Shown here one piece after another: positions 33,886 through 59,098 of a DNA stretch of 64,000 bases. The DNA is from Rhizophagus irregularis (taxonomy: Eukaryota > Glomeromycota > Glomeromycetes > Glomerales > Glomeraceae). The stretch covers positions 930,001 to 994,000 of the forward strand of contig NC_089435.1 of assembly GCF_026210795.1 (NCBI RefSeq). The letters are read 5' to 3'. The translations under genes were made by a program, and so were the position numbers. The notes below the pieces were generated by a model. That model saw only the letters and a program-made list of their open reading frames with translations, searched no databases and was not told the DNA's origin. Each line of letters begins with the position of its first letter. Positions within the stretch are counted from its first letter, which is position 1.

Positions 33886-33889
33886 ATTT

Positions 33890-34500: not shown

Positions 34501-34777
34501 GTGTAGCATAAATAAGTGTTACAAAATACCCCCGAAGTATAATACCCCCACTTATAGTATCCTACCGTCTATAGTACTCGGTATCTAATGAAGTACCCCG
34601 GGTATTACTCAATTTTTAAAACAGGTTTCTTGTATAAGACCTGGGGTATTATATGCAGTGCTAGACGGTAATAATGATTACTTTATTGTAAAAATGGTAG
34701 AATAGCACAATTATTTACTATATAATAATTATTAACTGATAAATAATCAAATAAATAAAGAATAAACAACAGAAATG

Positions 34778-37700
34778 TTAATCTTCAATTACACATTCAA
34801 AACCCTGAGTCTCTTGAACTAAAATTTCAGCAAGCTTGCGACTTGTATAATGTGCTTGTGGATGAGATTGTGTAATAGAAGGATTTACTTGTTCCTGTGA
34901 TAAAGATTTGTTTGCCATAACAAATTCCAACATAACATCTTTTAATTGATTATCAATATTAGGTACATCAAATTTGTAATTTCCATCCCTGTTTATTCTA
35001 TAATAATCACTAATACATTCAATCCATTCAGATATAATATTCTCAAGCATTATTATAGTTGGTCTATTGGCAGGATTTGAATCCCAACATTTTTTCATTA
35101 AATCCACATAACATTTTGGAGTATTTTTTATAATTTCAGGACGTTCTCCTTTACAAATACTCAAGATCAGATCATGATCATGTGCTTCATATTTAAATGG
35201 GGGAATACCTGATGTAAATTCCCACATTATCATTGAAAAACTATAAATATCACTTGCTGGAGTATAGGGATTATATCTTAATATTTCAGGCGCCATATAA
35301 GGTAAAACTCCATAAATTTCATTATCAGAATCCTGTGAATCATTTATAGGTTTACATAATCCTAAATCAATAATAAATAATTCATTATGATTATCTGACA
35401 TTAAAATATTGCCATCATGAAAATCACCATGAGTTAAATTTGATTCATGGATTACTTTAAGTCCTAATATAATTTTTTTTAATAATTGTAATTTGTCTTG
35501 CCACTTAAATTTAATTATATCAGATAAGCATTTTCTCAAACTTCCTTTTTTTGCATAACTCATTACTACTATATAATTTAAACTATTTGGATCTTGAGTA
35601 ATTCCAAAGAATTGAATAAACTTTGAAAATGATTTTTTCTGACAGTTATAATGATATTTCCACTATATAAATAATAATAAATTATTAAATTTTTGCAAGA
35701 GAAAATAAAATTTGATATTAAATAATATAAATAACATACCTCCTCAAGAAATTTATTATTTAAATTTGATGAACTATTAAGTGTTTTAAGAATAACCTCG
35801 TAACCTGTTTGAAAATTACATCTATTCCATTGTTTTTTGTCAAAATTCCAACTAAAAATAGGTCCATCTAACCAGATAGCTTTATGAATTTCACTGAATC
35901 CTCCTTTATCATAATAATTAATACTTGACAGTTTATCATAAGGTATCCATTCCAAAATTTCATAACTATTTTTAGCATTTAATTGTGCTTCTCGAATAAA
36001 TTTATCAATAAACTTATTTTTACTAGTCCATTTTGAAAAATCTTGTTGAAATTGTTTAGCATTACATTGTTGACACCACTGATAATCAGTGTATGGTTGT
36101 TTGCATTCATTACATAATTCAACTTTAGTATTGGGATTCACTTTATTACTTTCTGCTACTTTTTGATACCAATAAAAAGCTTTTTCTAAATTCTTTTCTG
36201 TTCCTTCTCCATTGTCATAACATGTGGCTAAATTATTCATTGCTTCAATATGATCTTTTTCTGCTGCTTTTTGATACCAATAAAAGGCTTTTTCTAAATT
36301 CTTTTCTGTTCCTTCTCCATTATAATAACAAATAGCTAAACTAAACATTGCTTCTTTAATACTATTTTCTGCTGATTTTTGATACCAATAAAAAGCTTTA
36401 TCTAAATTCTTTTCTGATCCATTTCCATTTTTATAACATATGGCTAAATTAAACATTGCAACAGTGTGACCATTTTCCACTGCTTTTAGATACCAATAAA
36501 AAGCCTCATTTAATTTCTTTTCTGTTCCTTTTCCATTTTTATAACATATGGCCAAACTAAACATTGCATCAGTGTGACCATTTTCTGCTGCTTTTTGATA
36601 CCAATAAAAGGCTTTATCTAAATTCTCATCTGTTCCTTCTCCATTATTATAACGTATGGCTAAACTAAACATTGCTTCTTTAACACCATTTTCTGCCGCT
36701 TTTTGATACCAATAAAAAGCTTTTTCTAAATTCTTTTCAGATCCTTCTACAGTAGAATACCTATTGGCTAAATTAAACATTGCTTCATTATCACCATATT
36801 CTGCTGCTATTTGATACCAATAAAAGGCCTTTTCTAAATTCTTTTCTGTTCCTTTTCCAATTTCATAATATACAATTAAAATAGACATTGCAATATTAAA
36901 ACCATTTTTTGCTGCTTTTTGGTACCAATAAAAGGCTTTTTCTAAATTCTTTTCTGTTCCTTTTCCATTTTCATAGTAGAAGGCTAAAATAGTCATTGCT
37001 TCTTTAATACCATTTTCTGCTGCTTTTTGATACCAATAAAAGGCTTTTTCTAAATTCTTTTCTGTTCCTTCTCCATTTTCATAACATATGGCTAAGTTAA
37101 ACATTGCATCAGTGTAATCATTTTCTGCTGCTTTTTGAAACCAATAAAAGGCTTTTTCTAAATTCTTTTCTGTTCCTTCTCCATTTTCATAACATAAGGC
37201 TAAAATAAGCATTGCTTCTTTAATACCATTTTCTGCTACTTTTTGAAACCAATGAAAGGCTTTTTCTAAATTCTTTTCAGTTCCTTCTCCATTTTTATAA
37301 CATATGGCCAAATTAATCATTGCTTCTTTAACACCATATTCTGCTGCTTTTTGATACCAATAAAAGGCTTCTCCTAAATTTTTTTCAGTTCCTTCTCCAT
37401 TTTTATAACATATGGCCAAATTAATCATTGCTTCTTTAACACCATTTTCCGCTGCTTTTTGATACCAATAAACGGCTTTTTCGAAGTTCTTTTCTGTTCC
37501 TTCTCTGTTATAATATCTATTGACCACATTAAACATTACCTTTTTAACACCATTTTCTGCTGCTTTTTGATACCAATAAAAGGCTTTTTCTAAATTCTTT
37601 TCTGTTCCTTTTCCAATTATATAATATATGGCTAAAATAGACATTGCAATAATAAAGCCATTTTCTGCTGCTTTTTGAAACCAATAAAAGGCTTTTTCAA

Positions 37701-38715
37701 AATTCTTTTCGGTTCCTTCTCCATTTTCATAACATAAGGCTAAAATGAGCATTGCTTCTTTAATACCATTTTCAGCTGCTTTTTGATACCAATAGAAGGC
37801 TTTTTCTAAATTCTTTTCTGTTCCTTTTCCATTTTTATAACATATGGCTAAATTAAACATTGTATCAGTGTAACCATTTTCTGCTGCTTTTTGATACCAA
37901 TAAAAGGCTTTTTCTAAATTTTTTTCTGTTCCTTCTCCATTTTCATAACGTATAGCTAAAATAAGCATTACTTCATTAATACCACTTTCTGCTACTTTAT
38001 GATACCAATAAAAGGTTTTTTCTAAATTCTTTTCTGTTACTTTCCCATTTTTATAACAAAAGGCTAAATACGTCATTGCAGTAATAAAACCATTTTCTGC
38101 TGCTTTTTGATACCAATAAAAGGCTTTTTCTAAATTCTTTTCTGTTCCTTCTCCATTTTCATAACGCATGGCTAAAATAAGCATTGCTTCTTCATTACCA
38201 TTTTCTACTGCTTTTTGATACCAATAAAAGGCTTTTTCTAAATTCTTTGCTTTTCCTTCTCCATTTTCATAACGTAAGGCTAAAATAAATACTTTTAGAT
38301 AACAATAAAAGACTTTTTCTATATTTTTTTCTGTTTGTTTTCCATTTTTATAACATATGGCCAAATTAATAATTGCTTTAATATGATCTTTTTCTGCTGC
38401 TTTTTGATGCCAATAAAAGGCTTTTTCAAAATGCATTTCTGTTTCTTCTTCACCTTCATAATGTATGGCTAAATTAAGCATTGCATCTTTAAGACTATTT
38501 TTTGCTGCTTTTTGATACCAATAAAAGGCTTTTTCTAAATTCTTTTCCATTCCATTTCCATAATGTATGGTTAAATTGAACATTGCTTCTTTATTACCAT
38601 TTTCTGCTAATTTTTCTAAAGAATTAATGCATTCTTTACACCATAATTCTTTAGTAAAAGGGTTATTGCAATATAAACAATTTTTGATATTTAAATTGCT
38701 AAATTTCGTTTCCAT
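34778..38715 (-). CDS. Sel1-repeat protein kinase A (zinc ribbon - about 23 Sel1 - zinc ribbon - kinase), 1286 aa
   Basis: Exons 38715-35740 (992 codons) and 35662-34778 (294 codons plus stop), separated by a 77-nt intron (GTATGT...TATAG, phase 0). The N-terminus has CLYCNNPFTKELWCKEC, a CX2CX10CX2C zinc ribbon. Residues about 35-850 are about 23 Sel1-like repeats of 36 residues (consensus GTEKNLEKAFYWYQKAAENG then (K/D)EAMFNLAICYENGE), paired helices that form a solenoid for protein binding. A second ribbon CNECKQPYTDYQWCQQC precedes a TKL-like kinase: glycine loop GGFSEIHKA, Lys in VILKTL, catalytic THGDFHDGNIL (HGD for HRD), DLG for DFG, and MAPEIL. Key catalytic residues are present, so activity is plausible. 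One Sel1 unit (near residue 140) is shortened by about 11 residues. Substrate unknown; cytoplasmic signalling is inference. Confidence 0.92.
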
Positions 38716-38912
38716 TTTATAATTTAGAAACTTATTCTATTGAAAGAATTTATTTTTTTTTTTGACAAAATTTTTAGATCATCGTGAATGAGTTACAAAA
38801 AAGGAATATTTTACCAAAAGAAGAAGTAATAATAAAAAAAAATAAATAAAATTAATTTTTTTTGGGTCATATTTTTTCCGGTAAGTGATCTGCATCGAGT
38901 TAAAATCAACCA
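38716..38912. other. Presumed 5' flank of Sel1-kinase A
   Basis: T-run near 38748 and A/T-rich leader; no defined promoter motif. The foldback element starting at 38913 lies about 200 bp upstream of the start codon. Confidence 0.35.
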
Positions 38913-39084
38913 CACCGACAAAAATTTAGCGATCATCACAGACAGCACGCCCCGTCGCCGGCATCGCCCCGTCAGGTTTCTATTCATCTGAGGGACTTAG
39001 GTTTTTTTTTTTGAGTAGGTAAAATCTTATTTGTTTATTTCACGTGTTCATGCATAATGCCGTAGTGCTAAATTTTTGTCGGTG
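38913..39084. mobile_element. 172-bp MITE with CACCGACAAAAATTTAGC ends and a GC-rich core
   Basis: CACCGACAAAAATTTAGC at 38913 is exactly mirrored by GCTAAATTTTTGTCGGTG ending at 39084. The interior contains CACGCCCCGTCGCCGGCATC, strikingly GC-rich for this window. No clear target duplication. It lies upstream of the Sel1-kinase A start and could influence its expression. Confidence 0.75.
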
Positions 39085-39685
39085 CGACTGGGGTAGTTGT
39101 TGAAATCAATAGATAAATAGTCACTTTTTCTATCATAGTTAGATAATATTATTTTGAACTTAAAATTTCAGATGACAAATTAATTTCACTTAGCAAACTA
39201 CATTCTATGATGCCATAAGTTTTTACTTAATTAATACGTGATCCATTTTGTTCAGCTGTGTCATAAGATCTTCATGTGACACAAATTTACTGCGCTCTAA
39301 AATTTATATAATCAACATGTTTAATTTTTTGATTTACATAAGCATTACATAAGTCGCAATATGATTGGGGACAAACATTAAAAAATTTTTTCTATACAAT
39401 AATTTGGTCTTCTTTTAAGCCAAAATATATTAAATATGACTCTGATAATATTGATAATATCCGTTGTGGATCCACTTTACACAATAATTTCTGGGATTTT
39501 TATTGTAAAATTGAAAGTACATATGTTTTACAATCAGTTTGAGTTTAAAGTTCCTATAATATGTATAATAAATTAATGTAAATTAGTTATATTATTTGAA
39601 AAATGTAAAAAATAGACAATTTTATAAAAATTATTAGTTTTAAAATATTTTTAAAATATTATAGATGTTGTTTTATCGGGAGGTA
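39085..39685. other. Intergenic, AT-rich, nothing recognised
   Basis: No exon, array or element end seen. Confidence 0.4.
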
Positions 39686-40239
39686 GTAAGTGAGTAACGG
39701 AAATTGGTTAAGTAAGTAACGTAATATTACTATTTTAGGTTACTCCCTCACGGAGCGTAAAGTCAATTATATTCCCCTTATATAAGTAAGGTACAGAAAA
39801 TAATATAGGGTTGCCTGGGCGATCATCGATCATCGTCTGGGTTTTTTTTGAAGTCCACAATTGTCACATGATGCACAATATATAGAGAATCGGCTGATAG
39901 CTGATCTGATCATTTTAACTTAGCTAATTTTGATCGGTTAAACTTAAAATTTTATTGCGAAGATATTTTTAAAAAATTTTTTTTGCAAACATATTTAATT
40001 CAAAATAATCTTATTTAATGAAATTTTATTCGTAAATATTAAAATTTAAGTCACACGTTTTAGATTTTAAAGAAATAATCACCATGTTTATTTAATTATT
40101 TTTAATGAAGTGATACAAAATAAAAAAAACAATAACAATAAATAAAAAAGATAAGTAAATTATAATGATCAAGGAAAAAGATGCTAATAAAAAAATGAAA
40201 TAACAATGGAGTAATGGAAAGTAATAGAAGATGAAAGGG

Positions 40240-40870
40240 AGTAAAAAAGAGCAATGAGAAGTGATAGGAAACAAAAAGGAGAAATAGGACATGATGAGAG
40301 ATAAAAAGGAGTGATGGGAAACGAAAAGAAGTGATGGGAGACGAAGATGAGTAATGAGAGACGAAAAGAAATGATGGGTGACAAAGAGGAGAGATGGGAG
40401 ACGAAAAGAAGTGATGAGAGACGAAAAGGAGAGATGGAAGACGAAAAGGGGAGATGGGAGACGAAAAGAAGTGATGAGAGACAAAAAGAAATGATGGGAG
40501 ACGAAAAGGAGTGATTGGAAACGAAAAGAAGTGATGGGAGATAAAGAGGAGTGATGGGAGACGAAAAGAAGTGATGAGAGACGAAAAAGAGAGATGGGAG
40601 ACGAAAAGAAGTGATGGGAGACAGAGAGGAGTGATGGAAGACGAAAGGAAGTGATGAGCCCCTTTTGGAAATTATTAAATAGTAAATTTGCCGATCATAA
40701 CGTGATCATAAATGATCGACAAACTTACTATTTAAAAATTTCCAAAAAGGGGAGAGACAAAAAGAAACGATGAGAGACGAAAAGGAGTGATGGGAGACGA
40801 AAAGAAGTGATGGGAGACGAAGAGGAGTGATGGAAGACGAAAGGAAGTGATGAGAAACAAAAAGAAATGA
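40240..40870. repeat. 20-bp minisatellite GTGATGGGAGACGAAAAGAA
   Basis: About 25-28 copies, purine-rich on this strand, with drift (AGTGATGAGAGACAAAAAG and similar). The long minus-strand frames translate the complement (TCTCCCATCACTTCTTTTCG) and are artefacts; their length follows from the repeat having no stop in several frames. Confidence 0.9.
40659..40752. mobile_element. 94-bp perfect-ended palindrome inserted in the minisatellite
   Basis: CCCCTTTTGGAAATT at 40659 is mirrored by AATTTCCAAAAAGGGG ending at 40752, with AAATAGTAAATTTGCCGATC mirrored inward. Comparing flanks with the array unit (GATGAGAGAC) shows that insertion duplicated AG (or GAG, if the right end is GGG). Absent from the related array at 60840-61370. 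Confidence 0.7.
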
Positions 40871-41685
40871 TAGGAAGTAAATAGGAGAGAAAAAGAAATA
40901 ATGGAAAATGAAAAGATGTAAAAGAAATAATGGGAGACGAATAATGAGAAGTAATATGAGGTGAAAATGATGAGAGACAAAAAATAAAAAAATGATCATG
41001 ATAAGAGATTGGGTAATGATAGGAAAAATAAACCATAAAGTAAAAAAAAATGAAATTAGTAAGAAACGAAATATAAGATAAAAACGAAATAAAAAAAATA
41101 AATAAAAAATAAAAAAACATACCTTTATTAATTTTAGAACTGAAATGAAATAAAAAAACAACTGAACCTTAATTGCAGAACCAGAAGGAACCGAGGAAAT
41201 GAACCTATATTGAAAACGAGATTTGATAAACAAATAAACATGACGTGATCATGTGGCAAATAATAAGGAGTAGCGTTAAGTATTTACCAAAAAAATTTAC
41301 GTTCCGTACCTTATATAAGAGAAGTAACGTAATAGATCATGTGACTTTACGTTACTTTGCCAATTTCCGTTACTTACTTTCTATATATTCGTGTTGAATA
41401 ATTTAAGTTTCGCGAATGTAGATTTTTATTCTACTTATTAGACTATCGGGTGATTTTTGGTATTACATGGAAAATGCAAATTATTAAAATCATTCATTTA
41501 ATGCAAAGTACTTGCTGCAGTTAATTTTTTTCATCATTATTTATTCAAATAATTCTAGTCAATAATTTAACTTCTTATTTTATTATTTTAGTTAATTAAT
41601 TACCTTAAAATTCAAGATAATCGGTATTTATTGACTGATTAGTAATACATTTATTAATTATTAATTGTTTAAAATTTTTTTTCAG

Positions 41686-41885
41686 TAGGTCGCACCCACG
41701 TTCTAGAATGGATCAGGTACTACTTTGCTGCGGATGATCGGTAGGTTATTCCACTAAAAAAAAAAAAATTTGACAATTATTTCTAATAAATAATTTTTTT
41801 TTTCTTAATGAGACCCATCGGAAAGAATTGTTTTTCTCACCTTAGGTTTGGTCTTAGCGTTTTAAATGGAAGGAACCGATCATAA
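41686..41885 (+). pseudogene. Possible two-exon gene fragment
   Basis: Exon-like 41686-41740 reads GRTHVLEWIRYYFAADD and ends CG|GTAGGT; after a 72-nt A/T-rich gap ending in AATGAG, 41813 onward reads PIGKNCFSHLRFGLSVLNGR in matching phase (CG plus A gives Arg), stopping at TAA 41883-41885. The amino-acid composition is protein-like and the GC content is higher than that of the flanks. I do not recognise the family and cannot extend it. Confidence 0.35.
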
Positions 41886-43789
41886 TGGAAGCTGCTGTTT
41901 TCAGTTATCGTCAGTTTTTTCTTCTTTTTTTTTTTTTGAACTAAAATTTCTTTTGTTATTAAAAAATACTTTTTAGATTCTGATTTTTGATTTTTTTATC
42001 TTTTCATTAAAAAAATGCTTTTTTAGATGAAAAAATTTCCGAATTTGGTTTTTTTTTTACCCAAAAAATTATTTATGATAATTGCATTTTTTTGCACAAA
42101 TTTTATTAAATAATAAAAACAATTAATAAAATGAATAAAAAAAAGATAACAGATAAAATGTAATTTTTTCATTAATTAAAAATATAAAAAAAAATTGGGA
42201 GAAAATTAATTTTTAAAAATAATAACAGTACTGTACGCTTATATTTATCAAAATTTTATATAATAAAATGCTTTAATTTTATATTGTTTGAAAGCCAAAG
42301 TTTTAAAGAATAAATATATGAATTTTTTATATTTTTGTCTTTTTAGAAATTAACAAGTATCTATAAAAAAAATTATTCTTTTTTTTTTTTAATTTAACGA
42401 TCAATCAGAAATTTTTCAATTTTTTTTTAATTAATACAGCCCTATAAAGTTTAAAAAGTATGAAAATTTGACCCAATATTCTTTAAAATCTATGTTATCA
42501 CATATTAAAATTTCAAGCATTTTTATTATGTGTAATTTTAAGTAATTAACAAAAATAGAGGATCCAATGTAACAATTACCAAATTCTTTTTTAATTAACA
42601 TAGTTATATGAAGGCTAGAACTATGAAATTTTGAATATATGTTTTGTAGGGTCTACGTCAACATATTAAAATTTCAAGTATTATTGTTATGTATAATTTT
42701 GAGTAATTAACAAAATAGAAGATCCAATACTTTTATCTAAGTAGCGTACTTTCAGTTGTCAGAAAAAACTATGTCTTTCCGTATAGAAGCCATAGTGCGA
42801 GATAAACTAAATTTTTTTTGTTAAAAATGAAATTTATGGATTAACAAGTTTCACAAAATTTCGTAAACAAAGCAAACGAGTTAATTGTCACGCTCATGCA
42901 TAATATAAATAAATATTGTACGGTACAGGTGATAAATAGAGTGATGATTAATGTGATGAAATTGTGCTGCAGGGGCTGCAGGTGCATAAATAAAAAAAAA
43001 ACGCCAGAGAATTTCTGAATCACGTGATAACTGTAAAAAGAGATTATGTAATTTGAAAATCTTGATGATGAACATGCATAATTATTTATATTGAATTTAT
43101 ATTACGTTTAACTAATTTTGAATTAAATCATCTGGCGCATTAAATATAAAAATTCAAAACCCTCTGTTTAATATAGTAGTTTGTGCTTTAAATTAAGCAA
43201 TTATAACATTCGAATTAATTATACAATTCACTGTTGACTAATAAAAAACCATGGTATAAAGTTAAACAAGTCGTACGTTTTACACCATAACCCTTTATAG
43301 TAACGTTATCATACTTGATTTATATTGTTTCTGCTATATTACAAAATAAATTGGAAGAAAAATAGAATTTACTAATTCGACATGTCACAGGATTAATACT
43401 TATAAAATTCTCCTAATTTTTTTTTTATTTTTTTATAAAAAAAGTACAGTACGTCAAAATTAAACTTTTTTTCTGATATAAAAAGATTTTGCAAAAAAAT
43501 GTGATATTTTTTTTATTATGAAAAATCATAAATTGTGTAATAAACTTGAGAGTTTATATTTATTTTCTTAAATTCGCTATGACGTCTCAAATTTTGTGTT
43601 AAATAGGAATATCAAAATTAGAAATTAGAAGTTAACCAAATCTAATAAATTAACTAATGATAAAATATTTATAAGCATGATCTATTAGTTATCGTATAAC
43701 AATCCAATCGCGCATAATTTTAAGTTTAGATTTATCTACAATTACCAAATTTGTTCAAATTATAACTAAACGTGGTTTAACACTTTGCA
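41886..43789. other. Intergenic with a diverged 180-bp direct repeat
   Basis: About 42440-42575 and 42620-42735 share CATATTAAAATTTCAAG(C/T)AT, TTTTGAGTAATTAACAAAAT-like and GA(G/A)GATCCAAT blocks in direct order. Small overlapping minus frames at 42841-43075 have no motifs. No gene supported. Confidence 0.4.
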
Positions 43790-44596
43790 GTAGGGTTTCG
43801 ATCCGTTATCCGAATTAGAATCCGTATTGAAATCCGTATTTCGGATTTAGATCCGGATTAAGACTTGTAATACGGATTAAAATCCGGATTAAATTATATT
43901 ATCCGGATTAAATCCGAATTAGACTTATGATAATTATAAATTTTTTTTTTATTCTTTTAATAATATTAGTATGCAATATAAATTTATTACACTTATATTC
44001 TAATTATGCTTCATCTTCTAAGTTATTCCAATCTGGCGCGAAAACTTCCATAACTTTAATATTTCGTTTTCAAAAGTGCATTTTAGTCACTATTCCCTTT
44101 CATCCAAGAATTTACATATGCATAGTTCTCCATTAACATTAAAACATTTTGTAAAATAACTATTTGCGATACTTGTATATTTTCTTTTAGCACTGCCCTC
44201 TTTTATAAATATTAATTAAAAAAAGATAAATTTTTATTCTTTTTAATAAAAAGAATTATTTTACAACCTTTTCTTCTAATTTCATGGGCAGTAGTCGCTA
44301 AATTTGTAATTCTTTGGACTTAAAGGGCTTTGTAAACTTCTATTAGGAAAATTTTCATTATCCAAATAATCCAAATAATAACTTAAGTGAGACGTAAAGA
44401 ATTTTGTTTACAAGTAAATAGTGATTATTAATATAGCAAATCAGTATTAAAGTATTTATATATTAATCCGGATTACAATCCGTCCAAACTGCTAATCCGG
44501 ATTACACAATCCGTCTAAATCCGTCGTAAGGATCATCCTAATTAAGCTCGGATAACGGATTTATCCGGATAGCTTAAAAAAGGATCGAAACCCTAC
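43790..44596. mobile_element. 807-bp foldback element with ATCCGGATTA repeats
   Basis: GTAGGGTTTCGATCC at 43790 is exactly mirrored by GGATCGAAACCCTAC ending at 44596. Just inside both ends, ATCCGGAT / AATCCG words recur (about ten at the left up to 43920, about eight at the right from 44463). No clear target duplication. The central 530 bp may hold a decayed reading frame on the minus strand (fragments MEVFAPDWNNLEDEA and ENYAYVNSWMKGNSD, each ended by TAA), too broken to assign. Confidence 0.7.
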
Positions 44597-46320
44597 CTGA
44601 TACACGATTTTTTTTGCCTGATACGCGAATTTTTGCCTGATACACGATTTATTATAACCATTTTTAATTATAAAAAATCACGTGATACCGGATAATAGAT
44701 TATATCTTGTAAAATCGTACATATTCGGAACTCGACATAATGACTATATGATATAATGGTAAGTCTATAATTTTTCTTTTCGTTCAAAAATATTCATTAA
44801 AAATAGAAAATAATAATATTACAAGTTGTATGATACAGTACTATTTTTTTTTAATAACAATTAGAATATGGGATAATATTAATTAATTTCAATTATTTCA
44901 CTATTTGTAATGGTGCTAACTTACAGGGATTTCCTTGTTATCATCCCAGGGCCCAGTCTACGTCTATATTGAATAAAATAAAATAAAATAAATAAACCTT
45001 TTGTCAATAGTAAAGAAAACTTACAAAATACTTTGCAGAAACTATAAAATTTTTCCTGATACTGATATGGTATCAATAAAATACCAATATTATTCCAGTT
45101 TATATTCCTATAATGGTATGTCACGAAACATTTACCATTAAGTAACGGTAAAAATAACACACATCATTGAGTATCATTACAATGTTATCACTATATTATT
45201 GCACGAATCTTAAAGACATCATATTGAGATTGTTGAGAATTTAATACTGTAATGCCACATTGTTATCATAATTGTAATATTAATTTATTAACATATATAT
45301 TAATTATATAAAATATAGTACATTATAAATATATTATTTAATGTAAAATAAAATTGTCTAAAAATTAAATTAATCCCATCACTATACTATTACCATCATT
45401 TTTTCTTTCCTCTTGTTATAATTGGATAGCCGCGGATTTTTAAGCGATCAACGTATTAAATTTCCGTTGACATAGCGCCCCAGGTGACACAACTATAACA
45501 AGGTGGGAACCTGATTTAGACAAAGGTATCACTGATTGATCTCTTTAGATACGCCTGCAGATAAAGAATTGAAGTTATTAATTTTGTTTTCGCTCCCTTC
45601 AAATAGATGTATCCATTATTACATTACTACCTCTTTTCTCTCCTCTCTACTTTCTTCCTGCTATTCCCCCACTTCTATTTTTTAGTAATAGTTCAACAAA
45701 ATATGCTTCCAATCTTACTAATGACTTTACTTATCATAAACTTTATTGCGCTACTCTCTTCTCTCTCTTTCCTTGCAATCAAGTTTCTTCTCTTCTTTTC
45801 CTTTCTTCGTGCAGTTACTACTTTATTTCTCCTTTACAATTCTTCATTTTATTCATTAGACATCAAAAAAAAAACTTCCCGAATCCTGTGAAAAGAAATT
45901 AGAAGAGGCTATCTAAGAAAAAAATAACGAAATATGAATACCTGTTTGTTAATATAAACAAATTAAAAAAGAAAAAAAAATACTACTCAAAAACCAACAT
46001 GTCTAAGGAGATCCAGGGACCAAAAACTGGCTGCCTAAAAACAAAATAATCCAACTAAATTCCATGCACCTAGAACCGTCTAAAAGAAAGCAAACCAAAA
46101 TATTAAAAAAAAGAATTTCATGCAACCAAATACTGAAACACAATCTGTCTAAAGAGAAAAGAAACAAGAAGTGTAATAAATGTTGAATGTTTGATAAAAT
46201 AATAATTAAAATAAAAAATATATAGAAAATTCACAAACAAAAGTAGAAAATTTATGAAATGTCATGTCCGGGAGCCGCCTAAAAAAAAAATCAAACCTTT
46301 ATATAGAATTTGATTTTTTT
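44597..46320. other. Intergenic, no supported gene
   Basis: CCTGATACACGATTTTTTTT is repeated three times at 44598-44650. The 94-codon frame at 45607-45891 (MYPLLHYYLFSLLSTFFLL) is hydrophobic because the strand is T/C-rich; without homology or splice support I leave it unassigned. A small minus frame at 44921-45160 likewise has no support. Confidence 0.35.
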
Positions 46321-46460
46321 TTTATGGGTACTTTCCAACTCTCTTTTCAAACAAAATATGAAAGAAGGAAAGGAAAAGAGTACAAGGAACAAAGGGAAAA
46401 ACAAAGGAAGTGAGATAGAAATAATGGAGGGAAAAAGTAAGTTAAAAAAAAATATTTAAA

Positions 46461-47160
46461 AAGAAAAAAGCGTGTGAAAGGGGAGTTAAAAAGTCAAAAA
46501 AGGTTATTTTAAAAAGAGCAAGTAAAAGGGGAGATAAAGAAAGTTAAAGTTTATTTTAAAACGAAAAAAGCGAGTGAAAGGGGAGTTAAAAAGTCAAAAA
46601 AGGTTATTTTAAAAAGAGCAAGTGAAAGGAGAGATAAAGAAAGTTAAAGTTTATTTTAAAACGAAAAAAGCGAGTGAAAGGGGAGTTAAAAAGTCAAAAA
46701 AGGTTATTTTAAAAAGAGCAAGTGAAAGGGGAGATAAAGAAAGTTAAAGTTTATTTTAAAATGAAAAAAGCGAGTGAAAGGGGAGTTAAAAAGTCAAAAA
46801 AGGTTATTTTAAAAAGAGCAAGTGAAAGGGGAGATAAAGAAAGTTAAAGTTTATTTTAAAATGAAAAAAGCGAGTGAAAGGGGAGTTAAAAAGTCAAAAA
46901 AGGTTATTTTGAAAAGAGCAAGTAAAAGGGGAGATAAAGAAAGTTAAAGTTTATTTTAAAACGAAAAAAGCGAGTGAAAGGGGAGTTAAAAAGTCAAAAA
47001 AGGTTATTTTAAAAAGAGCAAGTGAAAGGGGAGATAAAGAAAGTTAAAGTTTATTTTAAAATGAAAAAAGCGAGTGAAAGGGGAGTTAAAAAGTCAAAAA
47101 AGGTTATTTTAAAAAGAGCAAGTGAAAGGGGAGATAAAGAAAGAAAAAAAAGCGAGTGAA
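46461..47160. repeat. Homogeneous 100-bp satellite, seven copies, purine-rich
   Basis: Units start at 46461, 46561, 46661, 46761, 46861, 46961 and 47061, exactly 100 bp apart without indels. Each contains two related halves: GAAAAAAGCGAGTGAAAGGG plus GAGTTAAAAAGTC..., and AGAGCAAGTGAAAGGGGAGA plus TAAAGAAAGTTAAAG.... Copies differ at only a few sites (ACG/ATG at the unit start, AGTGAAAGG/AGTAAAAGG). The strand is almost free of C. Confidence 0.92.
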
Positions 47161-47683
47161 AGATAAAAAAAAGTTCATATTAAAAAAGATCGAACTGGTG
47201 GCATATCACGTGATATATAAATACTAGGAGCTTTTCCCGAAATTTTAAAATACTGTGAAAATACCTATAATACGCTTTTTCTATATACTATATTTTTGAT
47301 GAATTAACAATATTATAAAAAGAATTGTTTTGGTACAGCCAAAATGTCATGTGAAATCCCATTGCGATACTGGATTAACATCGGAACAATTCGTTAAAAA
47401 AAAAGGATCGTCACATTACCCTAAATATATTTTGTATATGTTTTAGTAATAACGTAACGATACCTTGCAAAAATTCAAGGTTTCTGCAAAGTAGTTAATA
47501 TTTCGTTATTAGTAACTTTAAATTTTTAAATTAAATAATAAATAATTTTAATAATATCGGGTTGAGAGTCAAACTATTAAGAAAAAGACTATTATCCAAA
47601 ATTTTTAGAAATAAAATTTTAAAATATGAATTACTAAAGTGCATGGTTTAGGAAACAGAAACCCGTTATTATTGTTATTATCG
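47161..47683. other. Intergenic, nothing recognised
   Basis: A/T-rich sequence without exons or arrays. Confidence 0.35.
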
Positions 47684-48016
47684 CCTTTTTCAAATTAATG
47701 CGACCCTTACATAACACCTCAATTTGTAATTATCTGCAATTTTATTGTACCATTATATAGAAAAGGATAATTATCAGCGACTTCTAGAAGAAATTTTAGT
47801 AATTTCTTGATTCTTAGGGTAATTTCATTATAAACGATCTTTTTAAAATTTTGTGTAACACTAACGTTTTTAGCAAGGAAACTACTCTAAGAACTGAGAA
47901 ATCACCGAAATTTCTTCCATAATCAGCCCTTTTCTACATATAAATGATACATTAAAATTGCAGATAATTCACAAATTAGGGGTATTATTTGGGGGCGCAC
48001 TAATTTGAAAAGGAGA
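47684..48016. mobile_element. Foldback element of about 330 bp with arms of about 110 bp
   Basis: CCTTTTTCAAATTAATGCG at about 47684, AATTTGTAATTATCTGCAAT and AGAAATTTTAGTAATTTCTTGATTC-type segments (split: AGAAATTTTAGTAATTTC, TTGATTC) are mirrored in order by GAAATCACCGAAATTTCTTCC, AATTGCAGATAATTCACAAATT (split at GATAATTC) and GCGCACTAATTTGAAAAGG ending at about 48016. Imperfect, so probably an old copy. Confidence 0.6.
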
Positions 48017-48868
48017 CAAGTCCGAAATGCTATTTTAGGTCTTAATACTGTTTTATTATTGTATATCATCATGTGCTGGACGGCATATCACCTTGCGTAG
48101 AATTATGTTACATTTCGGACAAATCCGTTGATCATATGTGTCCAGAAAATTTTCTTCCACTTCCTAATATTCCATTGATCTTTTCTATGTAAAGAGTAAA
48201 GGGCTTTCGGATAATACCCTAAAAAATATTTTTTTAATATTATTATATGTATTTCAGGATTTTTAATTTATAATAATCATTTATTGTATGTCTGAGAACA
48301 GAGAAATTACTATTGAATGTAACCATCATCAAAGCGAAATAATTCAATTATATTAGTATAATAATTTTCGTGCACCTATATATTGAGTTTTATTTATGAA
48401 AATATTCAATTTGCTTATTTTTCTAACAATTTTATTGGTGAAAACGTTGATAAAAATGCTTCGACTAACTTATCGACATGGTTTAACGCAGATCAGTTGA
48501 TGATCTGGAAAAAAAATGATCCGAAAAAAATCTGCATTGGTTTATTATAACTTCTACTTTTGGCTTTTTTAAAATTGAAAAAAGGCAATTTCAATAATAC
48601 ATTTGATTCTTAATTAATAGAAAAGGGGAATCTGAATTTTTGGTCAGAATTTTTTTATTGGTTCACTTTGCTGATTATAGTCGTTAGCTTAATAATATAA
48701 ATTACTAAAATTCTGACTTACTTCCTTTTTAATTGACGCCCTCCCATACCCTTTTCCTTGAATTCTGACGACAACATATACATGACATAGTATATAAAAA
48801 AAATTTGTTCAAAAGGAAATAATATTTTTTTTTTCAGTAAAATAAAATTTTTAAAATAACCAAATAAA
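48017..48868. other. Presumed 5' flank of Sel1-kinase B
   Basis: No gene. A diverged relative of the 19324 MITE (AGAAAAGGGGAATCTGAATT, then TTTTTGGTCAGAATTTTTTT) lies at about 48620-48720, and ends 150 bp before the ATG. No promoter motif defined. Confidence 0.4.
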
Positions 48869-51800
48869 ATGGGAATCAAATATAGTGATTTAAATATTTC
48901 AGATAAAGCTACTGATACAGTAGAAGCCAAAAATTGTCTATATTGCAATAAACCTTTTATTGAAAAATTATGGTGCAAAGAATGTATTAATTCTTTAGAG
49001 AAATTAGCAGAAAATGGTGATAAAAAAGCAATGAATAATTTAGCCCTTCATTATAAAAATGGAAAAGGAACAGAAAAGAATTTAGAGAGAGCCTTTTATT
49101 GGTATCAAAAATCAGCAGAAAATGGCGATGAAGATGCAATGTTTAATTTAGCCCTGCATTATAAAAATGGAAAAGGAACAGAAAAGAATTTAGAAAAAGC
49201 CTTTCATTGGTATCAAAAAGCAGCAGAAAAAGGTCATAAAGAAGCAATGCATAATTTAGCTATTACTTATTATAATGGAGAAGGCACAGCAAAAAATTTA
49301 GAAAAAGCCTTTTATTGGTTTCAAAAATCAGCAGAAAATGACAATAAAAAAGCAATGATTGTTTTAGCCGCATGTTATTACAATGGAGAAGGAACAGAAA
49401 AGAATTTAGAAAAAGCCTTTTATTGGTATCAAAAAGCAGCAGAAAATGGGGATAAAGAAGCAATGTTCAATTTAGCTATATGTTTTGAAAATGGAGAAGG
49501 AACTGAAAAGAATTTTAAAAAATCCTTTTATTGGTATCAAAAAGTAGCAGCAGAAAATGGTGATAATCAAGAAATGTTGAATTTAGCCATATGTTATTAT
49601 AATGGAGAAGGAACAGAAAAGAATTTAGAAAAAGCCTTTTATTGGTGTCAAAAAGCAGCAGAAAACAGTGTTGAAGAAGCAATGTTTTATTTAGCTGAAT
49701 ATTATAAAAATGGAGAAGGAACAGAAAAAAATTTAGAAAAAGCCTTTTATTGGTATCAAAAAGCAGCAGAAAATGGTAATGAAAAAGCCATGTTCAACTT
49801 AGCAATATGTTATGAAAATGGAGAAGGAGTAGAAAAGACTTTAGAAAAAGCATTTTATTGGTATCAAAAAGCAGCAGAAATTGATTACACTAATGCAATG
49901 TTTAATTTAGCTATGTGTCATAAAAATGGAGAAGGAACAGAAAAGAATTTAGAAAAATCCTTTTATTGGTATCAAAAAGCAGCAGAAAATGGTGATAAAA
50001 AAGCAATGTTCAATTTAGCTAATAGTTATAATAATGGAGAGGGAACAGAAAAGAATTTCATTAAAGCCTTTTATTGGTATCAAAGAGCGGCAGAAAATGA
50101 TGTTAGTGAAGCAATGTTTAATTTAGCCAATATATATGCAAATGGAGAAGGAACAGAAAAAAATTTAGAAAAAGCCTTTTATTGGTATCAAATAGCAGCA
50201 GAAAATGGTGATAAAAAAGCAATGTTTATTTTAGCCACATGCTATGAAAATGGCGAAGGAACAGAAAAGAATTTAGAAAAAGCCTTTCATTTGTATCAAA
50301 AAGCAGCGGAGAATAGTGTTGAAGAAGCAATGTTTAATTTAGCCATGTATTATAAAAGTGGAGAAGGAACAGAAAAAAATTTAGAAAAAGCCTTTTACTG
50401 GTATCAAAAAGCAGCAGAAAATGGTAATGAAAAAGCCATGCTTAACTTAGCTATATGTTATGAAAATGGAGAAGGAACAGAAAAGAATTTGGAAAAATCC
50501 TTTCATTGGTATCAAAATGTAGCAGCAGAAAATGGAGATATTCAAGTAATGTTGAATTTAGCCATATGTTATTATAAAGGAAAAGGAACAGAAAAGAATT
50601 TAGAAAAAGCCTTTCATTGGTTTCAAAAAGCATCAGAAAATGGTAAGGAAAGTGCAATGTTTATTTTAGGTCTATGTTATAACAATGGAGAAGGAACAGA
50701 AAAGAATTTAGAAAAAGCCTTTTATTGGTATCAAAAAGCAGCAGAAAATGGTGATGGACTAGCAATGTTTTATTTAGCTGTATTTTATCATTATGGAAAA
50801 GGAATAGAAAAGAATATAGATAAGGCCTTTCATTGTTATCAAAAAGCAGCAGAAAATGGGAATAAAGAAGCAATGTTTAATTTAGCTGTATGTCATAGAA
50901 TTGGAGAAGGAACAGAAAAGAATTTAGAAAAATCCTTTTATTGGCATCAAAAAGCAGCAGAAAATGGGGATAAAAAAGCAATGAATAATCTAGCCACATG
51001 TTATATTAATGGAGAAGGAACAGAAATAAATTTAGAAAAAGCCTTTTATTGGTATCAAAAAGCAGCAGAAGAAGGTGTTAAAGAAGCAATGATTAATTTA
51101 GCTATATGTTATGATAATGGCAAAGGAACAGAAAAGAATTTAGAAAAAGCCTTTTATTGGTGTCAAAAAGCAGCAGAAAATGATGATAGAGAAGCAATGA
51201 TTGTTTTAGCCGCATGTTATGGTAATGGCAAAGGAACAGAAAAGAATTTAGAAAAAGCCTTTTATTGGTATCAAAAAGCGGCAGAAAATGATAATAGAGA
51301 AGCAATGATTGTTTTAGCCGCATGTTATGGTAATGGCAAAGGAACAGAAAAGAATTTAGAAAAATCCTTTTATTGGTATCAAAAAGCAGCAGAAGAAGGT
51401 GATAAGAAAGCAATGTTTATTTTAGCTCAATATTATGAAAATGGAGAAGGAACAGAAAAGAATTTAGAAAAAGCCTTTTATTGGAATCAAAAAGCAGCGG
51501 AAAATGGGATTAAAGAAGCAATGAATAATCTAGCCACATGTTATAAAAATGGAGAAGGAACAGAGGAAGATTTAGAAAAAGCCTTTTATTTGTATCAAAA
51601 AGCAGCAGAAGAAGGTGTTAAAGAAGCAATGTTCAATTCAGCCATATGTTTTAAAAATGGAGAAGGAACAGAAAAGAATTTAGAAAAAGCCTTTTATTGG
51701 TATGAAAAAGCAGCAGAAAATGGTGTTAAGCAAGCAATGTTCAATTTAGCTATATGTTTTAAAAATGGAGAAGGAACAGAAAAGAATTCAAAAAAATTCT

Positions 51801-54800
51801 TTTATTGGTATGAAAAAGTAGCAGTAAAAAATCTTGATAATCAAGAAATGTTGAAATTAGCCGATAGTTTTAATTTAGGAACAGAAAAGAATTTAGAAAA
51901 AGCCCTTTATTGGTATCAAAAAGCAGCAGAAAATGGTAATATAGCAGCAATGCTTAATTTGGCCATACTTTATCATAATGGAGAAGGAACAGAAGAGAAT
52001 TTAAAAAAAGCCTTTTATTGGTTTCAAAAAATGAAAGCAGTATGTGGTAATAATCAAGCAATGCTTGATTTATCCATATGTTATTATATTGGAAAAGGAA
52101 CAGAAAAAAATTTAGAAAAAGCCTTTTATTGGTATCAGAAAGCAGCAGCAGAAAATGGTGATAATCAAGCAATGTTTAATTTAGCTATATGTTATTATAA
52201 TGGAAAAGGAACAGAAAAGAATTTAGAGAAAGCCTTTTATTGGTATCAAAAAGCAGCAAAAAGTGGTGTTAAGGAAGCAATGTTTAGTTTAGCCACACTT
52301 TTTAAAATTGGAGAAGGAACAGTAAAAAATTTAAAAAAAGCCTTTTATTGGTATCAAAAAGCAGCAAAAAATGGTGTTAAGAATGCTATGTTTAATTTAG
52401 CCAATGGTTACTACAATGGAGAAGGAACAAAGAAGAATTTAGAAAAAGCCTTTTATTGGTATCAAAAAGCTGCAGAAGAAGGTGATAAAGAAGCAATGTT
52501 CAATTTAGCCATATGTTTTGAAAATGGAGAAGGAACAGAAAAAAATTCAGAAAAATCCTTTTACTGGCAACAAAAAGCAGCGGAAAATGGTGACAAAAAA
52601 GCAATGTTTAATTTAGTTGATATATATGCAAATGGAGAAGGAACAGAAGAGAATTTAGAAAAAGCCTTTTATTGGTCTCAAAAATTAGCAGAAAATGGTA
52701 ATGAAATAGCAATGTTTAATTTGGCCGTATTTTATCATGATGGAAAAGTAACAGAAAAGAGTATAGAAAAAGCCTTTTATTGGTGTCAAAAAGCAGCAGA
52801 AAATGGTTACACTGGTGCAATGTTTAATTTAGCCAAATGTTATCAAGATGGAGAAGGAACAGAAAAGAATTTAGAAAAAGCATTTTGTTGGTATCAAAAA
52901 GCAGCGGAAAGTGGTAATGAAAAAGCCATGTTTAACTTAGCTAATAGATATTATAATGGAGAAGGAACAGAAAAAAATTTAGAAAAAGCATTTTATTGGT
53001 ATCAAAAATCAGCAGAAAATGGTAGTGAAAAAGCAATGAATGAATTAGCCATATGTTATAACAATGGAGAAGGAACAGAAAAGAATTTAGAAAAAGCCTT
53101 TTATTTGTTTCAACAAGCAGCAGGATATGGTGATAAAGAAGCAATGAATAATTTAGCCACATGTTACGATAATGGCAAAGGAACAGAAAAGAATTTAGAA
53201 AAAGCCTTTTATTGGTATCAAAAAGCAGCAGAAAAAGATCATATTGAAGCCATTTTTAATTTAGGCAATTGCTATCATAAAGGAGAAGTAACAAAAAAGA
53301 ATTTAGAAAAAGCTTTTTATTTGTATCAAAGAGCAGCAAAAAATGGTGATGAAAAGGCCATGCTTAACTTAGCTATATGTTATCATAATGGAGAAGGAAC
53401 AGAAAAGAATTTAGAAAAAGCCTTTCATTTGTTTCAAAAAGCATCAGAAAAGGTTAATGATCAAGCAATGATTAATTTAGCCATATGTTATGAAAATGGA
53501 GAAGGAACAGAAAAGAATTTAGAAAAAGCCTTTCATTGGTTTCAAAAAGCATCAGAAAATAGTAATGATCGAGCAATGATTAATTTATCCAGTCTTTATC
53601 TAGATGGAAATGGAACAGAAGAAGATTTAGAAAAATCTTTTTACTGGTGTCAAAATGCAGTAGCAGAAATTGGTGATGAACAAGCAATGTGTAATGTAGC
53701 CACATGTCATTGTTTAGGAAAAGGAACAGAAAAAAATTTAGAAAAAGCCTTTTATTGGTTTCAAAAAGCAGCAAAAAGTGGTGTTAAAGAAGCAATGTAT
53801 AATTTAGCCAGATTTTATGAAAATGGATGTGGAACAGAAAAAAATTTAGAAAAATCCTTTTATTGGTATCAAAAAGCAGTAGAAAATGGTTTGACTGATT
53901 CAATGTATAATTTAGCCAATATATATGCAAATGGAGAAGGATCAGAAAAAAATTTCGAAAAAGCCTTTTATTTGTATCAAAAAGCAGCAGAAAATGGTGT
54001 TAAGGAAGCAATGTTTATTTTAGCCAATAAGTATTACAATGGAGTAGAAATAGAAGGGAATTTTTATAAAGCATTTTATTGGTATCAAAAAGCAGCAGAA
54101 AATGGTGTTAAAAAAGCAATATTCAATTTGGCCACATGTTATAAAAATGGAGAAGGAACAGAGAAGAATTTAGAAAAAGCCTTTCATTGGTATCAAAAAG
54201 CAGCAGAAAAAGATGATATTACAGCAATGAATATTTTAGCCATATGTTATGAAAATGGAGAAGGAACAAAAAAAAATTTAGAAAAAGCTTTCTATTGGCA
54301 TCAAAAAGTAGTAGAAAGTAACAAAGTGAGCCCTAATACTAAAGTTGAATTATGTAATGAATGCAAGCAACCAGATACTGATTACCAGTGGTGTCAACAA
54401 TGTAATGCTAAACAATTTCAACAAGATTTTTCAAAGTGGACTAGTAAAAATAAGTTTATTGATGAATTTATTCAAGAAGCACAATTAAATGCTAAAAATA
54501 GTTATGAAATTTTGGAATGGATACCTTATGATAAATTGTCAAGTATTAATTATTATAATAAAGGAGGATTCAGTGAAATTCATAAAGCTATCTGGTTAGA
54601 TGGACCTATTTTTAGTTGGAATTTTGATAAAAAACAATGGAATAGATGTAATTTTCAAACAGGTTATGAGGTTATTCTTAAAACACTTAATAGTTCATCA
54701 GGTTCAGATGATAAATTTCTGAATGAGGTGTAGTATTTTTATTTAATAATCAGTTTTATTTCTTTTGCAAAAGTTTAATAATTTTTTTATCATTTATATA

Positions 54801-55722
54801 GTGTAAGTATCATTATAATTGTCAGAAAAATTCATTTTCAAAATTTATTCAGTTCTTTGGAATAACCCAAGATCCAAATAATTTAAATTATATAATAGTA
54901 ATGAGTTATGCAAAAAAAGGAAATTTGAGAAAATGTTTACCTGATATAATTAAATTTAAGTGGCAAGACAAGTTACAATTATTGAAAAAAATTATATTAG
55001 GACTTAAAGTAATTCATGAATCAAATTTAACTCATGGTGACTTTCATGATGGTAATATTTTAATGTCAGATAATTACAATGAATTATTTATTATTGATTT
55101 AGGATTATGTAAACCTATAGATGATTCACAGGATTCTGATAATGATGATAATGAAATTTATGGAATTTTACCTTACATGGCACCCGAAATATTAAGAAGA
55201 AATCCCTATACTCCAGCAAGTGATATTTATAGTTTTTCAATGATAATGTGGGAATTTACATCAGGTATTCCCCCATTTAAATATGAAGCAAATGATCAAA
55301 ACCTTATCTTAAGTATTTGTGAAGGGGAACGTCCTGAAATTATAAAAAATACTCCAAAATGTTATATAGATTTAATGAAAAAATGTTGGGATTCAAATCC
55401 TGCCAATAGACCAACCATAATTATGCTTGAAAATACTATATCTGAATGGATTAGATGTATTAATAAGTATTACGAATTAAACAGGGATGGAATTGGACAT
55501 TATGGAAATTATAACCATGAAGTAATTAATACTGATAATCAATTAAGAAATGATATGTTGGAATTTATAAAGGCAAACGAAGCTTTAGTACAAAAACAAG
55601 CAAATTCTTCTATTATACAATCTCATCCACAAGCATATTGTGTAAGTCGTACACTTACTGGAATTTCAGTTCAATCAGACCCAGTTCAAGAAAAGACTGA
55701 GTGTCTTGATTGTATGGTTTAA
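48869..55722 (+). CDS. Sel1-repeat protein kinase B (about 48 Sel1 repeats), 2259 aa
   Basis: Exons 48869-54727 (1953 codons) and 54802-55722 (306 codons plus stop), intron 74 nt, phase 0. Same architecture as kinase A: ribbon CLYCNKPFIEKLWCKEC; about 48 Sel1-like repeats of 36 residues between residues about 50 and 1790; ribbon CNECKQPDTDYQWCQQC; kinase with GGFSEIHKA, VILKTL, THGDFHDGNIL, DLG, MAPEIL. The kinase C-terminus is 12 residues longer than A. Several repeats have one extra Ala (QKVAAENGDNQEM), at least four cases, and one (LADSFNLGTEKN) is shortened. The donor is GTGTAG, weaker than A's GTATGT; without splicing the protein would end two residues later, before the kinase catalytic part. 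Repeats are very similar at DNA level, indicating recent tandem expansion. Role: likely scaffold plus Ser/Thr or Tyr kinase; substrate unknown. Confidence 0.93.
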
Positions 55723-56920
55723 GATTAATGATTCTGCTATTTATTCTTTATTTGCTGGATTATTTATCGGTTATTGTGTAGAAAATATTTATATATTTAT
55801 ACAATTCGTTACTATTATTTTTTTATAATTAATATAATTGCAACTGAATATTTACTTAAAATATTATCATAAAATTCACTTTTTGAAGTTATATCATCAA
55901 TACTAGACTTTTCAAAACAACTTCAGTTGCTTCTATCTATTTTCCGTCTAATTGATATTGATAAATTATTTTAGACAAAGTTCAGTTGATATATAGTTGT
56001 CTGGCAATGCTATATTTCCTAATGTCAAAACAATCTAAAGTTTAAAATATTTAAACATCTATGTTTATAAAAAAATTTATCCAATCATATAATCACTTTC
56101 TACCCTATGTGATTTTTGTGGCACATCAGCCTCATTTGCTTTTTTTCGTAACATTACCTTAGAAAAATTTTTTCGCTTCTCGCATTTTTAAAGTATAAAA
56201 AATATTGATTTCATGCTTTTAAAATTTCATATTTAATAAAATAAATAAATTATTTACTTTCTAAAAGTTAATAAAACACTAAAAATATGTTTTATTGGTA
56301 AAAAAAAAATGATAAGTTTGTTTGATTTTACATTGACATTTATGTCTGATTTATTAATAAACTAGAATATGCGATTTGCCAGGGGACTTCGTCCCCCAAA
56401 CATAACATTTATAATTAAAAAAATTTTTTGATATAAATAAATTGAATTGTATGTAAAATATTACCAAATAATAAAATTTTATTATAATTAAACCTATAAA
56501 AAATCATGTTTTTAATAAGGTTTTATACAATTTTTTCTTAAAAATAATGTTTCTAATCTATATAGGGATACGGAAAAATGCACAATTCCATATCACAAAA
56601 ATGTATCATTTTGCATGATTTGACCATAATTTATGCCGAATTTATATTGATTTGATCACAGAAATTACATAATTTAAGCATAGAATTTACACGATTTGGT
56701 TAATGAATTTACTGCTTAAATTACAATTATTAATATTAGTTGCATTTATATGAATTTGATTTTAATAATATTTTACTAAATTATTAAATCAAATATAAAA
56801 TCCTTAGTATCATGTGATTATAATTAGCCAATAATATAAATTAATTCTTATTATTTAAAATAATGACGTAAGTTGTAATAAGTGTTTTAAAGTTAATACA
56901 GCTACAAAAAAATAAAATTT
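55723..56920. other. Intergenic 3' of Sel1-kinase B, with one GC hairpin
   Basis: A/T-rich; the only notable item is GGGGACTTCGTCCCC at about 56383, a compact hairpin within AT-rich DNA. No gene. Confidence 0.45.
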
Positions 56921-58974: not shown

Positions 58975-59098
58975 TGCAATATTGCAATATTGCAATAACA
59001 ACGTCTATAGCTATAGCTATAGCTATAGCAATAGCAATAGCAATAGCAATAGCAATAGCAATAGCAATAGCTATAGCTATAGCTATATAGCTATATAG
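58975..59098. repeat. Microsatellite (CAATAT/CTATAG/CAATAG)n
   Basis: TTGCAATA three times, then CTATAG units, then CAATAG units, then CTATAG again and finally CTATATAG twice. The giant palindrome starts directly after it. Confidence 0.9.

Follow-up and report, generated by a model that had tools for sequence, protein, structure and literature searches.

We analysed 64,000 nt of the Rhizophagus irregularis genome (NC_089435.1; this whole stretch is called the window) and describe two divergent genes within it, gene 1 (g1) and gene 2 (g2). Each encodes a complete PK_Tyr_Ser-Thr kinase domain, with a mostly low ratio of nonsynonymous to synonymous change (omega), behind a solenoid of 23 (g1) or 49 (g2) Sel1-like units. 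The two tracts differ in the number and order of their units, and within the units the scaffold residues are fixed while residues of the first helix vary. We favour, with a probability of roughly 55 %, the reading that these are two paralogous signalling kinases of glomeromycotan type whose Sel1 solenoid is a docking surface. In such a protein helix 1 would line a concave groove, and each unit would therefore present a different short surface. The solenoid would bind a partner protein (a substrate, a regulator, or a factor of foreign or host origin), whose presence the C-terminal kinase would signal. Two cysteine ribbons would act as zinc-binding caps, one closing the solenoid and the other connecting it to the kinase. 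Unequal exchange or conversion of units, together with helix-1 variation, would then give each paralogue a separate docking surface. The genes and their main parts are:

34778..38715, minus strand: g1, two predicted exons, 1286 aa when spliced
48869..55722, plus strand: g2, two predicted exons, 2259 aa when spliced
36157..38607, minus strand: g1 Sel1 tract, 23 units, one truncated to 27 aa and one of 34 aa
49007..54310, plus strand: g2 Sel1 tract, 49 units
35663..35739, minus strand: predicted g1 intron, 77 nt, GTATGT...ATATAG, based on homology and reading frame
54728..54801, plus strand: predicted g2 intron, 74 nt, GTGTAG...ATATAG, with an unusual donor
34778..35662, minus strand: g1 exon 2, the remaining kinase (HGDFHDGN, DLG, APE) and a variable tail
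54802..55722, plus strand: g2 exon 2, the remaining kinase and a variable tail

Both genes are real and their anatomy is as a preliminary description of this DNA had it, including the coordinates and divergent orientation of a head-to-head pair. The domain order is the same in both proteins: a ribbon, the Sel1 tract, a second ribbon, a linker (WTSKNKFID) and the kinase. One predicted intron per gene is required to connect the kinase N-lobe with the remaining kinase, and it lies at the same place in g1 and g2, directly 5' of (W/C)KYHYNCQK in the N-lobe. Once spliced, the kinase domains match Pfam family PF07714 (PK_Tyr_Ser-Thr) with E-values of 4.5e-37 (g1) and 6.5e-37 (g2), at 128.2 and 127.7 bits against a cutoff of 23.1, and cover profile positions 22-254 and 22-256 of 258. 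The kinase also matches PF00069, and the alpha-kinase family is absent from the Pfam hits. The motifs Lys, HGD, DLG and APE can be read in the sequence; HGD replaces HRD in the catalytic loop of both kinases (non-RD type). By sequence the PDB kinase closest to the g1 domain is RIPK1 (7.7e-22).

The region after the tract is well conserved between the genes, with 367 of 429 aligned residues identical. The earlier statement that the ends are nearly identical thus holds for the C-terminal end; at the N-terminus g1 lacks a 10-aa block. Over the 429 codons the synonymous distance (dS) is 0.186, the nonsynonymous distance (dN) 0.075 and omega 0.40. Because omega is low in most successive blocks of 60 codons (0.10, 0.07, 0.38, 0.05, 0.62 and 0.33, the blocks at 0.07-0.10 lying around the second ribbon and the N-lobe) and rises in the tail after the kinase to 1.54 and then to 4.5 in the last 9 codons, we conclude that purifying selection prevails in the kinase but not in the tail. 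The tail also contains several indels.

The repeated unit of the tracts measures 36 aa or 108 bp, a period that Tandem Repeats Finder also detects. Scanning with the unit consensus gave 23 units in g1 and 49 in g2, so the previous count of about 23 and 48 is corrected to 49 for g2 and its twofold difference stands. In the first-exon open reading frames (ORFs) Pfam marks 21 (g1) and 49 (g2) Sel1 stretches, with scores for PF08238 (Sel1-like repeat) of 722.5 and 1620.5 bits against a cutoff of 30.7. The tract frame contains no stop codon over 2,454 nt in g1 and 5,309 nt in g2, compared with 42-75 and 63-164 stops, respectively, in the other five frames.

To obtain a view of the fold, eight g2 units were modelled with AlphaFold2 from an alignment of five 8-unit stretches of both genes. 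The model, whose predicted local distance difference test (pLDDT) score averages 85.8, folds each unit into two helices. Helix 1 spans unit columns 6-18; helix 2 starts at column 23-26 and ends at residue 2 of the following unit. Its best PDB matches are the Sel1 proteins 6ok3, 8sxq, 6deh, 4bwr, 6onw and 1ouv, and entries of eEF2 kinase (eEF2K) fall between ranks 32 and 40 among the 50 structural matches listed. In c5321 (4bwr), the first helices form the concave surface and the second helices the convex one (PMC3851747).

We compared all 72 units with each other (in the identity comparison g1 units 1 and 4 and g2 unit 27 are out of phase or overlapping; the later analyses use them in corrected form). 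At the DNA level mean unit identity is 0.795 within g1, 0.798 within g2 and 0.791 between the genes, and at the protein level 66.8 % within g1 and 65.3 % within g2. The mean silent distance among units is 0.205 within and 0.200 between genes, close to the 0.165 (uncorrected) of the post-tract region. The preliminary description had likened the tract to a minisatellite. Neighbouring units (lag 1) have a mean identity of 0.801 in g1 and 0.806 in g2, close to the values for all pairs, and the curve stays flat with distance; because identity does not drop with lag, we do not regard the tract as an active minisatellite and reject that as a general picture. The contrary signs are weak. A few neighbours are nearly identical (g2 units 21 and 22 at 97 %, g1 units 12 and 13 at 93 %), and when 15 candidate runs of duplicated units were tested against 60 permutations, 3 exceeded the 95 % level; these three are lag-1 runs of g2 that start from units 18-19 and leave units 18 to 26 or so as an exception. 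For instance, g2 units 19-21 match units 20-22 at 0.901, compared with 0.898 at the 95 % level. A fourth test (g1 units 7-10 with 14-17, 0.914) ties with that level, and none of the 15 exceeds the maximum of its 60 permutations.

The order of units is not colinear between g1 and g2 (p 0.07 with and 0.32 without the last unit, from 300 shuffles in each case), and the last units of the two genes match each other at 91 %. On the tree of units the gene label changes 12 times, whereas 1,000 shuffles gave 19.6 changes on average and never fewer than 14; the units cluster partly by gene, beyond chance, yet are far from separate. An insertion of one residue occurs in 6 of the 49 g2 units (6, 15, 27, 29, 30 and 44) and in none of the 23 units of g1. 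All six carry Gln at position 7, a residue that only 8 of the 72 units have there (Fisher p 1.8e-7). The earlier idea of a tract that changes length (23 versus 49 units) beside a conserved kinase is borne out; the order of units is reshuffled, and one insertion has spread to six places in the g2 tract. Given a twofold difference in unit number and, apart from the last unit, no conserved order, turnover is faster in the tract than in the kinase. We read these patterns as turnover of units, probably by unequal exchange or conversion, with some apparently recent local duplication in g2.

The tracts are bracketed by four ribbons:

38629..38679, minus strand: N-terminal ribbon of g1, CLYCNNPFTKELWCKEC, aa 13-29
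36064..36114, minus strand: second ribbon of g1, CNECKQPYTDYQWCQQC, aa 868-884, upstream of the kinase
48935..48985, plus strand: N-terminal ribbon of g2, CLYCNKPFIEKLWCKEC, aa 23-39
54353..54403, plus strand: second ribbon of g2, CNECKQPDTDYQWCQQC, aa 1829-1845

A ribbon on each side of the tract had been described before; the spacing given then (CX10) has to be revised, as all four ribbons are CX2CX9CX2C, that is, four Cys in two CX2C pairs, for which zinc binding is predicted. Searching all six frames of the window with C..C.{7,13}[WFY]C..C returned 4 matches, precisely these four. Other Rhizophagus kinases have similar CX2C...WCX2C ribbons directly before the kinase.

It is plausible that the tract lies within a duplicated ribbon, although a common zinc-ribbon pattern would look alike. 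The N- and C-terminal ribbons have identical spacing and share two further residues, a Pro that follows Cys 2 and a Trp that precedes Cys 3. In 3 of 4 ribbons an aromatic residue comes next to this Pro on its C-terminal side (Asp in the C-terminal ribbon of g2). Shuffling gives p 0.004-0.012 for their similarity score, and their DNA is identical at 30 and 31 of 51 positions (p 0.028 and 0.008). The alternative, that two small zinc ribbons with a common pattern arose separately and that the tract was not born inside a duplicated one, has close to an even chance in our estimate. It gains from the low identity outside the cysteines (2-3 of 13 residues, shuffle p 0.036-0.17) and from the 60 nt just downstream of the ribbons, of which 13 and 17 are identical between N- and C-terminal copies. 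It gains also from the profile matches: the N-terminal ribbons weakly resemble double zinc ribbon profiles, all below the curated cutoffs (Zn_ribbon_6 at 17.1 bits for g2 and 18.7 for g1, cutoff 25), and no zinc-ribbon family matched the C-terminal ribbon of g1, the one C-terminal ribbon searched. A PDB search with a profile of ribbon and N-lobe gave just two matches, at E 0.1 and 0.39, which we take as chance. Scans of viral contigs and prokaryotic genomes found no relative of the ribbon-kinase, and they say little, because they used two short peptide patterns only and these collections are not meant to contain fungi.

Where the units vary bears on the proposed docking surface. Over all unit pairs silent diversity (piS) is 0.204 and nonsynonymous diversity (piN) 0.187. 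The variability is concentrated at helix 1: codons 5, 6, 7, 10, 14, 15 and 17, at or in that helix, have piN of 0.40-0.58, and codons 9, 12, 19, 28, 30 and 34 have less than 0.06. Pooled piN/piS is 1.42 (bootstrap 1.20-1.72) for these seven codons, a post hoc set picked once the variability had been seen, versus 0.66 (0.57-0.81) for the other 29. Among the 72 units there are 69 different strings at the seven sites. The null came from simulating neutral evolution 200 times along the unit tree, with a single silent rate scaled to give the observed piS. The top seven columns average 0.471 versus a null maximum of 0.393, and 7 columns reach 0.39 compared with at most 4 in any simulation. Silent divergence at the seven codons is 0.33 versus 0.20 overall, whereas the simulations assume a single rate.

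Codon likelihood was computed on three trees (from all sites, without the seven codons, and a star), ignoring recombination between units; results are given in that order. For the seven codons omega is 1.54, 1.77 and 1.65 (p 0.045, 0.013 and 0.025; post hoc). Exposed positions, assigned by helical wheel with the variability already known, give 1.30, 1.63 and 1.42 in helix 1 (p 0.25, 0.044 and 0.13) and 0.53, 0.62 and 0.46 in helix 2 (p 0.019, 0.10 and 0.0023), and the contrast between the two faces has p 0.011, 0.012 and 0.0009. In tests of single codons, uncorrected for 36 codons, codon 7 falls below 0.05 in all three trees, codon 17 in two and codons 5, 20 and 26 in one each. Codon 6, one of the seven, goes the opposite way in the star tree, its silent rate being at the edge of the allowed range. 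A fair summary of these comparisons would be that constraint is strong on the scaffold, moderate on helix 2 and apparently none on the concave face; diversifying selection at a few codons is no more than hinted at.

Several results weigh against a diversified docking surface. For the helix-1 positions outside the published Sel1-like repeat (SLR) consensus (PMC3851747), mapped by hand onto our unit, omega is 1.02, 1.13 and 1.01, none significantly above 1, and contrasting this set with helix 2 yields p 0.13, 0.18 and 0.059. The most variable single column reaches 0.575, below the null maximum of 0.587, and overall piN/piS, at 0.92, lies within the null range of 0.80-1.32. The concave face of c5321 is also its less conserved face (PMC3851747), and variability alone could therefore reflect relaxed constraint. 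In two middle blocks of the kinase omega is 0.38 and 0.62. A model of g1 exon 1 (mean pLDDT 63.8) lies mostly below 50 at residues 1-24 and 857-992, the segments containing the ribbons, and so lends their proposed capping role no structural support. The positive selection on exposed helix residues envisaged earlier may or may not act here: an omega above 1 is confined to column sets chosen in knowledge of the variability, and omega is 1.01-1.13 for the consensus-defined set.

One explanation for such values is that the tract is a spacer or scaffold whose length drifts neutrally by unequal exchange and whose helix-1 surface is unconstrained. The omega near 1 of the non-consensus helix-1 positions, the overall piN/piS inside the neutral range and the less conserved concave face of c5321 speak for drift. 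It does not readily account for the top seven columns, which jointly exceed the neutral simulations and have an omega above 1 on all three trees (post hoc), nor for the conservation of exposed helix 2 and its contrast with exposed helix 1. We consider neutral drift possible but on balance unlikely, and retain the docking surface. As a separate observation, silent divergence in the tracts (36157-38607 and 49007-54310) differs nearly twofold along the unit, with 0.28 in columns 5-18 and 0.16 in the remainder.

The pair belongs to a setting in which such domains abound. The most amplified families of R. irregularis include Sel1, kinase, BTB and Kelch, its kinase and Sel1 families have a mean methylation above that of core genes, and its amplified signalling genes are over-represented beside Mutator-like elements (PMC8647823). 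Such expanded genes make up about 8 % of R. irregularis genomes (PMC11075540), and the averages for other Glomeromycotina with sequenced genomes are 3400 motifs of Sel1 and 1500 of tyrosine kinase (PMC9453076). The genes described here resemble these families in their Sel1 and PF07714 domains and their repeat-rich, high-copy character (PMC8647823, PMC6123716, PMC9453076). They differ in that Sel1 and kinase are named there separately, the ribbon-Sel1-ribbon-kinase layout and the evolution of single units not being described in the available text of those reports. Titles and abstract openings in the literature likewise yielded no paper on this architecture or on selection in the Sel1 tracts of such kinases.

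A fusion of a kinase with Sel1 repeats is known from eEF2K, in which the SLR-containing part is needed for substrate phosphorylation (PMC5742810). The g2 tract model matches the eEF2K fold; eEF2K is, however, an alpha-kinase with four predicted C-terminal SLR motifs (PMC8438118), whereas g1 and g2 have a PF07714 kinase and 23 or 49 N-terminal units. The Sel1 solenoids LpnE, LceB, HcpC, c5321 and SEL1L/Hrd3 share the repeat fold, but their solved chains are shorter and the match excludes the kinase and the ribbons.

A parallel in mode of evolution may be the NOD-like receptors (NLRs) of fungi. In 69 WD40 repeats of Podospora few codons are variable, the rest are homogenised and repeat number varies (PMC1805685, PMC4986451). 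Fungal NLRs combine shuffling of WD repeats with selection at few surface codons (PMC4986451, PMC1805685), and positive selection and length polymorphism are also found in their TPR and ANK repeats (PMC4986451); the main text of this NLR survey nowhere uses the word Sel1 (PMC4986451). Like the HNWD NLRs of Podospora, g1 and g2 vary in repeat number, as a difference between paralogues only, shuffle their units and concentrate variability on few surface codons; unlike them, they have no NOD domain, carry Sel1 in place of WD, ANK or TPR, and have a lower unit identity. The best reading of this analogy is that g1 and g2 evolve somewhat like the repeats of fungal NLRs, without the NLR core.

One could go further and suppose that the solenoid is a recognition receptor that senses self and nonself or a host factor and is diversified as HNWD and NLR repeats are. 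The resemblance to the 69 Podospora repeats (PMC1805685, PMC4986451) and the partial clustering of units within genes, with mixing between them, would fit. The Pfam hits nevertheless contain neither a NACHT nor an NB-ARC domain, unit identity (65-67 % in aa) is under the 85 % threshold for highly conserved NLR repeats (PMC4986451), and the selection statistics are weak for the consensus-defined set; we think such a receptor improbable. It is a longer shot still that mycorrhizal fungi deploy zinc-capped, RIPK-like Sel1-solenoid kinases as a diversified intracellular recognition repertoire, following the logic of NLR repeats with units exchanged within and between genes and residues of the concave groove diversified. 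The pair provides a concrete pattern, with a conserved kinase, a shuffled solenoid and variability on one face. If the idea were true and data from isolates agreed, such kinases would become candidates for recognition receptors in organisms living within plants. If recognition is not confirmed, the pair still documents tracts that turn over faster than the kinases fused to them.

The least probable alternative is decay of g2, the longer-tract copy, through loss of its splice donor, which would turn it into a solenoid without a kinase or into a pseudogene: its donor is GTGTAG compared with GTATGT in g1 and without splicing its protein stops at LNEV, inside the kinase N-lobe, but GT-AG is retained, the ORF of the second exon is open for 273 codons without frameshift and pairwise omega is below 0.4 across most of the kinase.

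The head-to-head arrangement leaves a long spacer between the genes:

38716..48868: spacer between both ATGs, 10 kb, with satellites and no clear shared promoter sequence

The ATG-to-ATG distance is 10,153 bp. Homology between the flanks of g1 and g2 is lost about 35 bp upstream of the ATGs and about 50 bp downstream of the stops. Farther upstream just two weak matches remain, one 23 bp and the other 25 bp long, at unequal distances from the ATGs, and downstream of both genes there is one match of 72 % (155 bp of the g1 flank). Because homology fades about 35 bp before the ATGs, the layout gives no evidence of a shared promoter, and we reject a shared head-to-head promoter. We also reject capture between terminal inverted repeats, as comparing the flanks of each gene with each other (30000-34777 with 38716-43000 for g1; 44000-48868 with 55723-62000 for g2) gave no match at E 1e-4.

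The window is A+T-rich (about 73 %, or 68-78 % in 2-kb blocks) and contains many tandem arrays. A satellite with a 20-bp unit (TGATGGGAGACGAAAAGAAG) is found inverted on both sides of g2, at 39921-40656 and 60998-61715, with 85 % identity over 745 columns. A second satellite (CGTGCTTGATATTTATCTGTA) occupies 59177-59598 and 63130-63475 in opposite orientations. Two further arrays flank g2, one of 100 bp upstream (46455-47143, 97 % matches) and one of 175 bp downstream (56922-58398, 96 % matches). Four dispersed arrays (4493-4850, 8470-8793, 13473-13907 and 16554-17065) have similar palindromic cores of the type AAGAAAAATTCGCGAGAATTTTTCTT.

The tract query matched one contig of a viral collection (L001:9881-11044), where it hit a bacterial Sel1 protein that is uninformative on the kinase. 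Judged by gene content, the neighbourhood of that protein resembles a BREX-type defence island. Among ten further ORFs of the window scanned, three match transposase families; the fragments lie at 1573-2259, 28173-28742 and 32754-33422 and correspond to Transposase_21 (tnp2), Plavaka and a Tc5-type helix-turn-helix with DDE_1.

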